Shown here: positions 58,339-62,533 of the stretch, piece after piece | How the letters are laid out: every line of letters starts with the position of its first letter | Numbering within the stretch: position 1 is the first letter of the stretch | DNA from: Acetobacterium malicum subsp. dehalogenans DSM 11527 | GTDB lineage: Bacteria > Bacillota > Clostridia > Eubacteriales > Eubacteriaceae | Direction: 5' to 3' | DNA: 64,000 nt | Assembly: GCF_000472665.1 (NCBI RefSeq) | Contig: NZ_AXAC01000019.1 | Coordinates: 55 to 64,054 of the forward strand | Program-made: the position numbers and the translations under genes | Notes under the pieces: generated by a model | Databases searched by the model: none | The model's input: the letters and a program-made list of their open reading frames with translations, nothing else | Told to the model about the DNA's origin: nothing

Positions 58339-60183
58339 TTGAATAAATACCTTAAGATGATTGGGTTTTATTTAGTAATTCTATTAATCATTATTGTCGC
58401 AGTAACCTTTTTAAACCCCATGAAGGAAGAGGTTAAAACGATTGTTTATAGCGAGTTGCTCGTTGAGCTGAATAATAACCAGGTCGCTGAGATTGAAATA
58501 AACAACTCAAATGTCACCGGTGTTCTACGAAGTGGCGAAACATTTGAGGCAGTCGTACCGCAATATGTAATAGATGAACAGGTAACACCGTATATTTTAG
58601 AGAATGACGTGAAGGTAACCATTACCAAACAGCAGGATTCCTGGTGGATTTCTTTAATTCCGTCGGTGGTGCTGATTGTTTTAATGGTGGTGTTTTTCCT
58701 GGTCTTCAGCCAACAGGCTGGTGGTGGTGGCGGTAAGGTGATGTCCTTCGGAAAGAGCCGGGCTAAGCTTCACGTTGAGGGAGAAACCAAGGTTACGTTT
58801 AAAAACGTGGCTGGTGCAGATGAAGAAAAAGAAGAACTTGAAGAGGTTGTCGACTTCTTAAAAGCACCGGATCGTTACCGTAAACTGGGCGCCCGGATAC
58901 CAAAAGGGATTTTATTAGTTGGCCCTCCGGGAACCGGGAAAACCCTTCTGGCCAGAGCCGTGGCTGGGGAAGCGGCAGTGCCGTTTTTCACCATCAGTGG
59001 TTCGGATTTTGTCGAGATGTTTGTTGGGGTCGGAGCTTCCCGAGTTCGGGATCTTTTCGAAAATGCCAAGAAAAACGCCCCCTGTATCATTTTCATTGAT
59101 GAAATTGATGCGGTCGGTCGTCATCGTGGCGCTGGTCTCGGTGGTGGACATGATGAACGGGAACAAACCCTGAATCAGCTGCTGGTGGAAATGGATGGCT
59201 TTGGAATCAATGAAGGCATTATCATCATCGCCGCAACCAACCGTCCGGATATTCTGGATCCGGCCTTACTGAGACCGGGACGTTTTGACCGTCAGGTTAC
59301 AGTTGGCGTACCTGATGTAAAAGGTCGGGAAGAAATTCTCAATGTTCACAAAAAAGACAAACCGTTGGCTCCCGAAGTGGAGTTGGGTACGATTGCCAAA
59401 GGAACACCGGGATTCACCGGAGCTGATCTGGAAAACCTGATGAACGAAGCGGCATTGTTGACTGCCAGACATAACGGCAAACTGATCACTATGGTTGAGC
59501 TGGAAGAAGCCATTAAACGGGTTATTGCCGGACCGGAAAAGAAAAGCAAGGTTGTCAACGAGGATGATTTGCATATTACCGCCTATCATGAAGCCGGACA
59601 TGCGATTGTCATGCATCTTTTGCCCAACTGTGACTCGGTTCATGAGATTTCGATTATTCCTCGGGGAATGGCTGCAGGGTACACCCTGTCGCTGCCGGAT
59701 GATGATCGTCAGCATATGAGTAAAAACAAATTGCTGGAAAACATCTGCGGTTTACTGGGCGGGCGGGCAGCAGAGAAAATTGCCCTGGATGATATCTGTA
59801 CCGGTGCCAGCAATGACATTGAACGAGCGACCCACATTGCCAGAAGCATGGTAACCGAATGGGGTATGAGTGAACATCTGGGACCGATGACCTTTGGACA
59901 TCCGGAAAGCGGCGAAGTATTTCTGGGCCGGGATCTGGGTAGATCTCGTAACTACAGTGAAGAAGTGGCGGCCGTTATCGATAAGGAAATCCGGACGATT
60001 GTGGAAAATGCCTATGATCGGGCTTGTTCTATTCTCGAAACACATCAGGAAAAGCTTGAAGAAATTGCGACCCGCTTACTCAGAGACAAAACCGTAACGG
60101 GTGAAGAATTCAGAGCGTTGTTTGAAGAACAGCCAGAAGCAGAAAAAATGGTTGAAGTTGAGATTGAAACTGAAATAGAATAA
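58339..60183 (+). CDS. ftsH: FtsH membrane-bound ATP-dependent zinc protease
   Basis: FtsH degrades membrane and short-lived cytoplasmic proteins. The protein of 614 residues has TM1 (about 5-24), a small extracytoplasmic domain, TM2 (about 108-128), an AAA module with Walker [10 protein letters not shown] (about 195) and the second region [20 protein letters not shown], and the zinc motif HEAGH (417-421). Translation starts at TTG 58339 with GAGAGGAGTG upstream. The C-terminus is strongly acidic. It is followed by a perfect terminator. Confidence 0.96.
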
Positions 60184-60190
60184 TGATGAT

Positions 60191-60222
60191 AAAAAAAAGC
60201 CGTTTTTATAACGGCTTTTTTT
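60191..60222 (+). terminator. Terminator after ftsH
   Basis: AAAAAAAGCCGTT, a TTTAT loop and AACGGCTTTTTTT form a perfect stem with a T run. Confidence 0.9.
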
Positions 60223-60278: not shown

Positions 60279-60680
60279 ATGGAAGAATTCAGAATTGGAA
60301 CTTGTTATGAGAAGAAATTTTTAATTAATACAGAAGATACAGCATTAGCACTGGGCAGTGGTGGGGAAGAAGTTCTGGCGACACCTCGGCTGGTAGCCTG
60401 GATGGAGAATACCGCCTTTGAAGGAGTGGACATTATCTTGCCCGAAGAAAATACGACAGTCGGAACCCGAATTGATTTAAAACATATAGCAGCTTCTCCC
60501 GTTGGTATGGAAATCAATGTAAGAGCCACATTGGTGACTTATGAAAAAAGAGCCTTGAGTTTTGAAATTGAAGCATGGGATCAGACGGAAAAAATTGGCG
60601 AAGCTGTTCATCAACGTTTTATTGTTGATAAAGGCAGATTTCTAAAAAAGGTATTGAAAAAAACAGAAATGAACAACTAA
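60279..60680 (+). CDS. Hotdog-fold acyl-CoA thioesterase (FlK-like)
   Basis: The protein of 133 residues has the single hotdog domain of the FlK-like thioesterases: LATPRLVAWMENTAFEGVD, the TVGTRIDLKHIAASPVGMEI strand with the conserved histidine, and a VHQRFIVDKGRFLKK ending. FlK itself hydrolyses fluoroacetyl-CoA; most relatives have unknown acyl-CoA substrates. ATG 60279 follows TTGGAGG. The gene lies between ftsH and a folate-dependent formyltransferase, 59 bases from the latter, so the two may be co-transcribed. Confidence 0.85.
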   Translation: MEEFRIGTCYEKKFLINTEDTALALGSGGEEVLATPRLVAWMENTAFEGVDIILPEENTTVGTRIDLKHIAASPVGMEINVRATLVTYEKRALSFEIEAWDQTEKIGEAVHQRFIVDKGRFLKKVLKKTEMNN

Positions 60681-60739
60681 ATAAAAAGCTAAATAAAAAA
60701 TGAATCATATAAAACTTTTTTATATTGGAGGTGCTTTGA

Positions 60740-61678
60740 ATGAAAATCGTATTGGTTGGACAGGCGCTCTTTGGAAAGGACTGCCTGGAAGTTTTATTAG
60801 GCCAGGGCGAAAAAATAGTGGGTGTGATTACCATTCCAGATGATTTAAGGGGAAGGCCTAATCCGCTTAAAGATTTTGCACAAGAAAAAAATATACCGGT
60901 ATTTCAGCCTCCGGGTAAAAGTCCGCGGCGACTTAAAGATCCCCAAGTGTTGGCCATCGCCAAAGATTTAAAGCCGGATCGTTTTGTATTGGCTTTTGTC
61001 AGCGATATTATGCCCTATGACGTTATTAAATTGGCGACTTTTGGAGGAATAAATTATCATCCTTCATTATTGCCTAAATATCGCGGGGGTGCAGCGATTA
61101 ATTGGGCTTTGATCAATGGCGAAAAGGAAACGGGGATAACGATTCATTACGTTGATAAAGGGATTGACACAGGTGATATTATCTTTCAGGAAAAAGTCGA
61201 AATTTCTCCAGAAGATACGGTGGGGTCCCTATATTATGACAAACTCTATCCGTTGGGTTTAAAACTGATTGCTCAAGCAGTGGAAGGTATTCGAAAAGGC
61301 ACCGCCCCCCGAATCCCCCAAGATTCAGACAAAGCGACCTATCAACCGATGATTACAGAAGATGATGTAAAAATTGATTGGAAAAATGGAGCCGCGGAGA
61401 TTTATAATCTCGTTCGTGGTTCGAACCCTTCACCCGGGGCACTGACGATCTTTAGAGGTGAAAAAATTAAAATTTGGGATGTCCAAATCATCCCATCCGG
61501 TCCCGTTTTGGAACCTGGAGCAGTGGTTGAAATAGTGGAAGGCCAGGGTTTCAGCATTGAAACCGGCAGTGGGACGATACTGGTTAAAAAAGTACAGCGG
61601 CCAGGAGAAGCCAAGATATCGGCGGACCAATTTGCTAAACAGATTCAATTAAAGCCAGGGGAAAGCATGGCCGGATAA
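60740..61678 (+). CDS. Formyltransferase family protein resembling the 10-formyl-THF hydrolase domain of FDH
   Basis: The protein of 312 residues has the formyltransferase core with N105 and H107 in NYHPSLLPKYRG and D143 in GIDTGDIIFQ, the usual Asn-His-Asp triad, and a C-terminal OB-like domain (about 205-310). It is close in pattern to the N-terminal hydrolase domain of 10-formyltetrahydrofolate dehydrogenase (VGQALFG near the start, YHPSLLP, AINWALI, KIDW). The other candidate is a methionyl-tRNA formyltransferase; the usual SLLPxxRGAAPI motif reads SLLPKYRGGAAI here and no def gene is adjacent. Substrate is therefore 10-formyl-THF, acceptor unknown (water, tRNA or other). In an acetogen this intermediate belongs to the Wood-Ljungdahl route. 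The start at 60740 follows TGGAGGTG. Confidence 0.8.
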   Translation: MKIVLVGQALFGKDCLEVLLGQGEKIVGVITIPDDLRGRPNPLKDFAQEKNIPVFQPPGKSPRRLKDPQVLAIAKDLKPDRFVLAFVSDIMPYDVIKLATFGGINYHPSLLPKYRGGAAINWALINGEKETGITIHYVDKGIDTGDIIFQEKVEISPEDTVGSLYYDKLYPLGLKLIAQAVEGIRKGTAPRIPQDSDKATYQPMITEDDVKIDWKNGAAEIYNLVRGSNPSPGALTIFRGEKIKIWDVQIIPSGPVLEPGAVVEIVEGQGFSIETGSGTILVKKVQRPGEAKISADQFAKQIQLKPGESMAG

Positions 61679-61696: not shown

Positions 61697-61726
61697 CCTG
61701 ATAAAATTGACTGAAATTTTATCAGG
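61697..61726. other. Hairpin before coaX
   Basis: CCTGATAAAATT and AATTTTATCAGG are perfectly complementary around a short loop. No T run follows. It may be a weak terminator or a regulatory structure. Confidence 0.45.
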
Positions 61727-61762: not shown

Positions 61763-62533
61763 ATGATTTTAGGTATTGATGTCGGAAACACAAATACAGA
61801 ACTGGCAGTGTTGATTGGTGATGAAATCCCGTATTCCTGGCGATTTGTCACCAAAACACCGCGAACCTCAGATGAATATGGGGTGTTGATTAAATCCTTT
61901 TTTAGAAACTCGGAAATATCGGTGGAGGAAGTCAGCAGTGTGATCATTGCTTCGGTGGTACCCAACATTATGTACTCACTGACGAACGGCATTAAAAAAT
62001 ATATTGGTGTTGAACCGATGGTGGTGGGCCCGGGAATCAAAACTGGGATGCCAATTAACACCTCGGATCCATCCGAAGTGGGGGCAGATCGGATCGTCGA
62101 TGCGGTAGCGGCTTACAGCATTTACGGTGGACCGGTGATTGTTACTGACTTTGGAACGGCAACCACCTTTGATTATGTCACTAAAGACGGGGCCTTTGCC
62201 GCCGCCGTAACCACCCCTGGGATTCAGATTTCGATTGATGCCTTGTGGAAGAATGCTGCCAAGCTGCCTAATATCGAAATCAAAAAACCGGCCTCGATAC
62301 TGGCCCGAGACACGGTTACCAGCATGCAGGCTGGTTTGGTTTATGGTTATATCGGCCAGGTGGAGTATATCATTGAACAGATTAAAAAAGAGACCGGAGT
62401 CAAGGATATGAAGGTGGTGGCAACTGGTGGGTATGGCCGTCTTTTCTATCAGGAAACAAAATCCATCAACGTTTATGATCCGCAGCTGTCTCTTAAAGGG
62501 TTAAAGATTATCCACGACAAAAATTTCAGGTAA
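61763..62533 (+). CDS. coaX: Type III pantothenate kinase
   Basis: CoaX phosphorylates pantothenate, the first step to coenzyme A, and unlike CoaA is not inhibited by CoA. The protein of 256 residues shows GIDVGNTNTELAVL, the GPGIKTGMPINTSDPSEVGA segment, GADRIVDAVAAY and VTDFGTATTFDYV. The start at 61763 has TAGGAGGAAAG. It keeps the conserved place of coaX downstream of ftsH; dusB follows 12 bases later. Confidence 0.95.
   Translation: MILGIDVGNTNTELAVLIGDEIPYSWRFVTKTPRTSDEYGVLIKSFFRNSEISVEEVSSVIIASVVPNIMYSLTNGIKKYIGVEPMVVGPGIKTGMPINTSDPSEVGADRIVDAVAAYSIYGGPVIVTDFGTATTFDYVTKDGAFAAAVTTPGIQISIDALWKNAAKLPNIEIKKPASILARDTVTSMQAGLVYGYIGQVEYIIEQIKKETGVKDMKVVATGGYGRLFYQETKSINVYDPQLSLKGLKIIHDKNFR

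Follow-up and report, generated by a model that had tools for sequence, protein, structure and literature searches.

The window, a stretch of 64,000 nucleotides from Acetobacterium malicum subsp. dehalogenans DSM 11527 (contig NZ_AXAC01000019.1, positions 55 to 64,054), carries a stand-alone formyltransferase (FT) that in all probability belongs to the family of the N-terminal domain of 10-formyltetrahydrofolate (10-formyl-THF) dehydrogenase, ALDH1L1 or FDH. This analysis establishes the fold, family, residues and neighbours of the protein. Their best explanation, which we regard as evenly poised between right and wrong, is that FT exchanges a formyl group between 10-formyl-THF and coenzyme A (CoA). 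More tentatively, and with somewhat less than even prospects, we propose that the family as a whole would consist of formyl-CoA:tetrahydrofolate formyltransferases giving ATP-free entry of C1 units, and that ALDH1L1 would be a later fusion to a phosphopantetheine carrier. The features of the locus, in window coordinates, are:

58339..60183, + strand: ftsH, one flank of the thioesterase-FT pair (name from ORF reading)
60192..60222, + strand: terminator-like hairpin AAAAAAAGCCGTT...AACGGCTTTTTTT 3' of ftsH, seen by eye and absent from the list of the consensus scan
60279..60680, + strand: FlK-type hotdog acyl-CoA thioesterase, 133 aa, ATG at 60279 to stop at 60680 (Pfam FlK)
60727..60732, + strand: Shine-Dalgarno-like GGAGGT 5' of FT (sequence reading)
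60740..61678, + strand: FT, a 312-aa formyltransferase that stands alone and falls in the family of the ALDH1L1 (FDH) N-domain (Pfam, phmmer, trees, residues)
61052..61060, + strand: codons for N105, Y106 and H107, part of the active-site motif INYHPSLLPKYRGG, followed by S109 and R115 (alignment)
61166..61168, + strand: codon of the catalytic Asp143 of FT (alignment)
61763..62533, + strand: coaX, type III pantothenate kinase, the fixed flank of the insertion (name from ORF reading)

A sequence-only reading of this DNA had already placed a hotdog thioesterase and a formyltransferase at 60279-61678, flanked by ftsH and coaX; both reading frames were found there, at 60279-60680 and 60740-61678, the flanking pair is seen in the ORF map, and its numbering of N105, H107 and D143 is exact in our alignment. 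FT is present in five of the 19 genomes of the genus: the source of the window (G000) and four others (G001, G002, G015 and G008, A. bakii), whose orthologs are 66-86% identical. On a coaX tree of 18 of these genomes (G016 left out), this distribution needs at least three changes. With a dN/dS of 0.09-0.18 relative to the four orthologs, FT evolves under purifying selection and is thus not a chance ORF. The sequence GGAGGTGCTT(T/C)GA at its Shine-Dalgarno site is common to G000, G001, G002 and G015. Because a terminator-like hairpin lies 3' of ftsH, at 60192-60222, the thioesterase and FT are suggested to form a transcription unit of their own; a promoter and terminator scan of the window gave counts close to those of shuffles. 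Between FT and coaX, at 61697-61726, we also observed an inverted repeat, CCTGATAAAATT...AATTTTATCAGG, of which no counterpart was seen by eye in G001, G002, G015 or G008.

The thioesterase scores 118.7 bits with Pfam FlK (PF22636; cut-off 27) and about 45 bits against FlK itself. Its T35, E43, G62, H69 and R113 correspond to Thr42, Glu50, Gly69, His76 and Arg120, functional residues of FlK in the numbering of that enzyme; a literature search on the residues of FlK gave no result. FlK-type thioesterases occur in 17 of the 19 genomes of the genus and coaX in all 19, and in each of the 13 genomes that have FlK without FT the thioesterase directly precedes coaX on the same strand, the matches lying 11-19 nt apart and the stop-to-start distance being exactly 8 nt in the five that were read. 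Since the two genes adjoin in all 13 of these genomes, FlK-coaX is the ordinary order in the genus and FT is the insert. The earlier idea of an unusual gene pair between ftsH and coaX thus holds for FT, inserted in 5 of 19 genomes, and fails for the thioesterase, which is the usual neighbour of coaX whether or not FT is there, so that the two genes do not stand up as a unit. FlK and FT as a conserved pair were rejected on three counts: the FT-less FlK-coaX order, A. bakii, which has FT without FlK, and the finding that among 81 FT contexts FlK lies near FT in only four Acetobacterium loci and in 0 of 76 loci outside the genus.

FT consists of two formyltransferase domains only (Formyl_trans_N 126.7 bits, Formyl_trans_C 79 bits), with no fused carrier or aldehyde dehydrogenase domain in its 312 aa and without the C-terminal enoyl-CoA hydratase-like domain of HypX/HoxX. 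Against solved structures, phmmer ranks rat 10-formyl-THF dehydrogenase (1s3i, 202.1 bits) above the best listed methionyl-tRNA formyltransferase (Fmt; 4iqf, 175 bits). FT passes the NCBIfam Fmt model TIGR00460 (208.7 vs a cut-off of 201.5) and fails the PurU model (44.3 vs 285.95), which it matches only over the catalytic part. The AlphaFold2 model of FT has a pLDDT of 94.1 and a pTM of 0.88, and a fold search with it returned 4iqf (Fmt) at Z 36.0 and 4qpd (FDH) at Z 35.1; these values are nearly equal, and the fold was dropped as a discriminator.

The trees place FT on the side of FDH. In a 58-row tree, FT, its four orthologs, L080, L081, other bacterial relatives and the ALDH1L1 N-domain form one clade of 27 rows (support 100/100), and the 26 Fmts form a separate group (99/96; L021 was left out of the Fmt set, no protein having been recovered). 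The FDH-clade relatives include Deltaproteobacteria, Syntrophaceae, SAR202, Actinomycetota and Comamonas. An approximately unbiased (AU) test with five outgroup rows, run without L094, L096-L099 and four Fmts, rejects a grouping of the window's clade with Fmt (p 0.0005), and the same grouping is not rejected (p 0.10) when ArnA is the only outgroup and the sugar and PurU rows are left out. All 81 family members score higher with the family profile than with the Fmt profile, in a comparison made without leave-one-out. The phmmer scores and the trees bear out the sequence-only reading in that FT is nearer to the FDH N-domain than to Fmt, and the outcome that would have spoken against it, a position inside Fmt in a genome with no other fmt, did not occur.

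Residues were compared between 26 Fmts and 81 family rows, which represent 80 distinct loci because L084 and L197 coincide. The family has H-P-S at the active site in 81 of 81 rows, whereas all 26 Fmts have H-(G/A)-S; the residue before the catalytic His is Tyr or Phe throughout the family and Ile, Val or Leu in every Fmt; and Gln8, present in 76 of 81 family rows, gives way to Thr or Ser in each of the 26 Fmts. The stretch corresponding to FDH 30-50 comprises 18-22 residues in 81 of 81 family rows vs 26 in all 26 Fmts, that is, 4-8 fewer. In Fmt the loop at this stretch contacts the tRNA acceptor stem. FDH His106, Ser108, Arg114, Asp142 and Tyr200 correspond to H107, S109, R115, D143 and Y201 of FT, the first four being kept in 81 of 81 family rows and also in the 26 Fmts; since all five are usual in Fmt too, they do not separate the two families.

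The positions of FDH Ile104 and Phe89 are occupied by N105 and I90 in FT. At position 104, Ile in FDH, the 81 family rows have Asn (18), Cys (41) or Gln (22). Asn is kept in all seven rows from Acetobacterium and L080/L081, a clade that thereby retains the Asn of the true transferases; in the relatives linked to frc this position is Gln or Cys, and on these residues function may differ between the Asn clade and the Gln/Cys clade. In an 87-row tree the forms with Asn lie at the base, and those with Gln, Cys or Ile, ALDH1L1 among them, make up one clade (SH-aLRT 98); this tree was built by a quick method, rooted towards Fmt with 10 of the 26 Fmts, and left out L197 as a duplicate locus along with five nearly identical rows of the Comamonas type (L094, L096-L099). 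Within the bacterial Gln/Cys clade of the 87-row tree lie the ALDH1L1 N-domains of rat and zebrafish, and this suggests that the ALDH1L1 N-terminal domain is of bacterial origin.

FT is not the cell's Fmt, because a canonical def-fmt pair lies on contig C39 of G000 within priA-def-fmt-rsmB-rlmN (names from ORF reading), which answers the search for a separate fmt-def pair that the earlier reading had proposed. Its view of FT as a stand-alone enzyme of the 10-formyl-THF type, distinct from Fmt, agrees with that pair and with the FDH-side clade, as far as sequence can tell. The whole genome holds four Formyl_trans_N matches, including a 219-aa frame on C8, PurN-like by length, and on C1 a sugar-type formyltransferase (L036:2757-3602) in a nonulosonate-like cluster (ORFs by eye). 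The loci L041 and L042 contain further sugar-type formyltransferases in two sister genomes, also read by eye. Each of the nine genomes checked via their loci has one or more other formyltransferase matches with lower scores, and the FT family therefore looks like an extra gene.

A 14-member family profile searched against 299 genomes of the window's phylum gave eight matches at 369-460 bits, the others among the matches listed scoring at most 293. At E 1e-95 or better, members were found in 44 of 297 genomes of a Desulfobacterota sample and in 10 of 398 of a Pseudomonadota sample. Of the order-level matches at 40%, those that were read (L043-L046) are canonical Fmts by locus and were discarded as family members. 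A phage search returned 43 records, all below 60% identity (best listed 35.3%), the best 10 of the 43 carrying no annotation. A search of 72,556 plasmid records with the Comamonas-type protein gave a single match at 1e-40. With the L083 protein as query, 82 plasmid records appeared at 1e-30; the same plasmid again ranked first, and the rows listed after it carry the label fmt or no annotation. There is a sign of misannotation here: at least one family member is labelled methionyl-tRNA formyltransferase, and FT itself passes the Fmt cut-off.

The neighbours of the relatives point in part to formyl-CoA. In nine Comamonas-type loci (eight from Comamonas or Comamonadaceae, one from Betaproteobacteria) FT follows frc in every case, and the oxalyl-CoA decarboxylase gene oxc comes before in six, these contigs being short; Tct-type transporter-like genes then come in several of them. 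Among the nine loci fetched from the Pseudomonadota sample, frc is present in seven and oxc in six, whereas among 20 stretches taken at random from these genomes one has frc, and that as a weak match of 35% identity (p 1.7e-4, ignoring relatedness). NCBIfam cut-offs are passed by Frc of L093, L237 and L244 and by Oxc of L093, but not by the CaiB-type proteins next to FT in L236 and L085. The frc-linked relative L092 lies below the Fmt cut-off, at 160.2. A Paracoccaceae plasmid carries the operon oxc-frc-FT-fhs, with sucCD, ppc and tctBA nearby; its FT is annotated fmt_2 and is nonetheless a family member (335.5 bits vs 180.2 with the Fmt profile). In L242, fhs lies directly 3' of FT.

The Desulfobacterota neighbourhoods are mixed. 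Among the 42 loci read of 44 matches (G506 and G536 left out), FT follows sucC-sucD-citE in 12, most with a 94-aa protein between sucC and sucD, and glcD is directly behind in 10 of the 12. SucC occurs in 13 of 42 loci vs 1 of 20 random stretches (p 0.025), the one positive control, L295, overlapping an FT neighbourhood and leaving 0 of 19 when removed; CitE occurs in 12 of 42 vs 0 of 20 (p 0.006); enrichment of glcD and glcF near FT is not significant (p 0.35 and 0.31). Another 23 of the 42 loci have no reference neighbour within 9 kb, and in at least six of these (L205, L209, L213, L215, L218 and L219) a glutamyl-tRNA synthetase (gltX)-like gene was seen by eye among the next one or two genes, which in one Desulfobacterota clade speaks for no CoA link. 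The protein between sucC and sucD, 94-97 aa and Cys-rich, is found at L083:3372-3656, L084:3450-3743 and L087:3849-4139, and the L083 copy has no Pfam match at 1e-8. At single loci FT stands beside other CoA enzymes, an acyl-CoA ligase-type protein (Succ_CoA_lig, ATP-grasp) in L221 and an enoyl-CoA hydratase-like gene (ORF by eye) in L088.

Among the Bacillota, glcDEF follows FT in five of seven loci, all five in family f25, whose sixth member, L155, is without it. A three-subunit 2-oxoacid:ferredoxin oxidoreductase stands between FT and glcDEF in L150 and L151, with a divergent pyruvate-type oxidoreductase in front. The members L150-L154, which adjoin glcDEF, carry Asn at position 104.

In Acetobacterium and L080/L081 the FT loci look housekeeping, and no acyl-CoA enzyme was seen there apart from FlK. 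G000 has no CoA_transf_3 match, oxc is over the cut-off in 0 of the 19 genomes of the genus, and G000 has no clear GlcF, the best match being 32% over half the protein, a half-match found only in G000, G015 and G016; in G000, therefore, formyl-CoA has neither a visible source nor a visible sink. Two candidate partners within the genus were set aside. CoA_transf_3 is present in nine of 19 genomes, three of the five with FT (G001, G002 and G008; not G000 or G015) and six of the 14 without, and a link to FT was rejected on these proportions. A three-subunit 2-oxoacid oxidoreductase, 46-48% identical to PorA of L151, occurs in four of five FT genomes vs three of 14 FT-less ones (Fisher p 0.038, ignoring relatedness) and was not counted as a partner, its locus containing ligase, aminotransferase and methionine-type-like genes (by eye). 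On C29 of G000 (L256:4489-9306) four genes seen by eye stand in a row, for an oxidase resembling GlcD, a CCG-like protein, a glycine-cleavage H-like protein of 135 aa and a dihydrolipoamide dehydrogenase-like protein; the CCG-like protein is also matched in G015 and G016.

Based on these data, we propose that the FT family is the bacterial source, or close to the source, of the ALDH1L1 N-terminal domain. In two accounts of the FDH N-domain, a thiol attacks the formyl group first, beta-mercaptoethanol in vitro and 4'-phosphopantetheine in the enzyme (PMC4388273, PMC6802093). In FT, the Rossmann domain would bind tetrahydrofolate, and residues H107, S109 and D143 would move the formyl group between the folate N10 and a thiol. 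That thiol is the 4'-phosphopantetheine on the carrier domain fused to FDH, and in FT most likely that of free CoA. The reaction would then be 10-formyl-THF + CoA <-> formyl-CoA + THF. A relative of the thiol-using FDH N-domain that stands alone beside formyl-CoA genes and fhs is best understood in this way; the part of CoA as acceptor or donor, the direction and the physiology are inferred. For relatives that use oxalate, glyoxylate or glycolate, the useful direction would be from formyl-CoA to 10-formyl-THF, an entry into folate C1 metabolism without ATP, and fhs run backwards afterwards could even yield ATP. At the oxc and frc loci the source of formyl-CoA would be oxalyl-CoA; at loci with glcDEF and the 2-oxoacid oxidoreductase, glyoxylate could give formyl-CoA as pyruvate gives acetyl-CoA. 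In Acetobacterium, FT could feed formyl-CoA into the methyl branch of the Wood-Ljungdahl pathway, or could draw off 10-formyl-THF by way of formyl-CoA together with a thioesterase for small acyl-CoAs, for instance the adjacent FlK. The formyltransferase fold is known; the predicted substrate pair, formyl-CoA and THF, was not found in the open-licence literature, in which we found no description of a stand-alone formyl-CoA:THF formyltransferase. In the text available from PMC8092247 and PMC7486775, the routes given for glyoxylate are malyl-CoA, glyoxylate carboligase, the C2 cycle, malate synthase or oxalyl-CoA, and no such transferase is named there.

The high formyl-folate flux of acetogens counts for a hydrolase, which would release formate and THF from 10-formyl-THF as PurU or the FDH N-domain alone would, freeing THF whenever formyl-folate accumulates in the acetogen; moreover, none of the four formyltransferases of G000 is PurU-like by length and locus. 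The isolated FDH N-domain was studied as a hydrolase, yet according to the same source it needs a thiol that attacks first, which argues for a thiol acceptor (PMC4388273). Simple hydrolysis also leaves the frc, oxc and fhs neighbours unexplained, and N105 is kept, and we consider this reading unlikely. The sequence-only reading had offered a relief valve for formyl-folate or the loading of a formyl group on an unknown acceptor: the acceptor is most likely the CoA thiol, as the neighbours of part of the wider family point to formyl-CoA, and the relief valve corresponds to this less likely hydrolytic alternative. A second, diverged methionyl-tRNA formyltransferase would suit the TIGR00460 score, a model that is as near to Fmt folds as to FDH, the gltX-like gene beside at least six Desulfobacterota relatives and the AU result with ArnA as sole outgroup. 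It is highly improbable given the canonical def-fmt pair of G000, the 100/100 clade and the AU rejection with five outgroup rows, the shorter FDH 30-50 stretch in every member and the score of L092 below the Fmt cut-off.

The retention of N105 in all seven Acetobacterium and L080/L081 rows, at housekeeping-like loci with FlK as the only acyl-CoA enzyme seen, would also agree with a division of labour in which the Asn clade formylates another small amine (of a sugar nucleotide, lipid or metabolite) and only the Gln/Cys clade acts on CoA. We find this distinctly unlikely: the Asn-bearing L150-L154 adjoin glcDEF, two of them together with the 2-oxoacid oxidoreductase, no sugar genes were seen near FT, and the sugar-type formyltransferase of G000 is another gene. 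Formyl exchange with CoA therefore stays our preferred reading. If it is true, formyl-CoA and 10-formyl-THF are directly connected, and users of oxalate and glycolate, as well as some acetogens, would have an ATP-free entry for C1 units into folate metabolism and into the Wood-Ljungdahl pathway. Such a link would explain how anaerobes could channel the carbon of glycolate, glyoxylate or oxalate to acetogenesis, would be of use as a component of synthetic C1 pathways, and would provide ALDH1L1 with a bacterial ancestor and a rationale, the transfer of formyl to a pantetheine thiol.

Among known systems, FT shares with the ALDH1L1/FDH N-domain its clade, the motif YHPSLLP..RG, GQ at positions 7-8, the short loop and the catalytic His, Ser, Arg and Asp; it differs in being free-standing where FDH has fused carrier and aldehyde dehydrogenase domains, and in having Asn and Ile for FDH Ile104 and Phe89. 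With Fmt it has in common the two-domain fold and the catalytic residues including the Asn, whereas Fmt forms another clade, with a longer loop and H(G/A)S in place of HPS, and FT does not lie with def. PurU likewise uses 10-formyl-THF and shares the catalytic domain, although FT stays far below its cut-off. FlK, the fluoroacetyl-CoA thioesterase, resembles the protein of 60279-60680 in its Pfam family and apparently in matching catalytic residues; the latter could hydrolyse formyl-CoA, yet it stands there with or without FT. Lastly, the HypX/HoxX N-domain scores only 37 bits with FT, and HypX is fused to the enoyl-CoA hydratase-like domain that FT is without; the likeness lies in the proposed chemistry, since the HypX N-domain has been proposed to make formyl-CoA from 10-formyl-THF and CoA, an idea for which its authors state that direct results are lacking (PMC6802093), and which is the same formyl transfer that we propose for FT.
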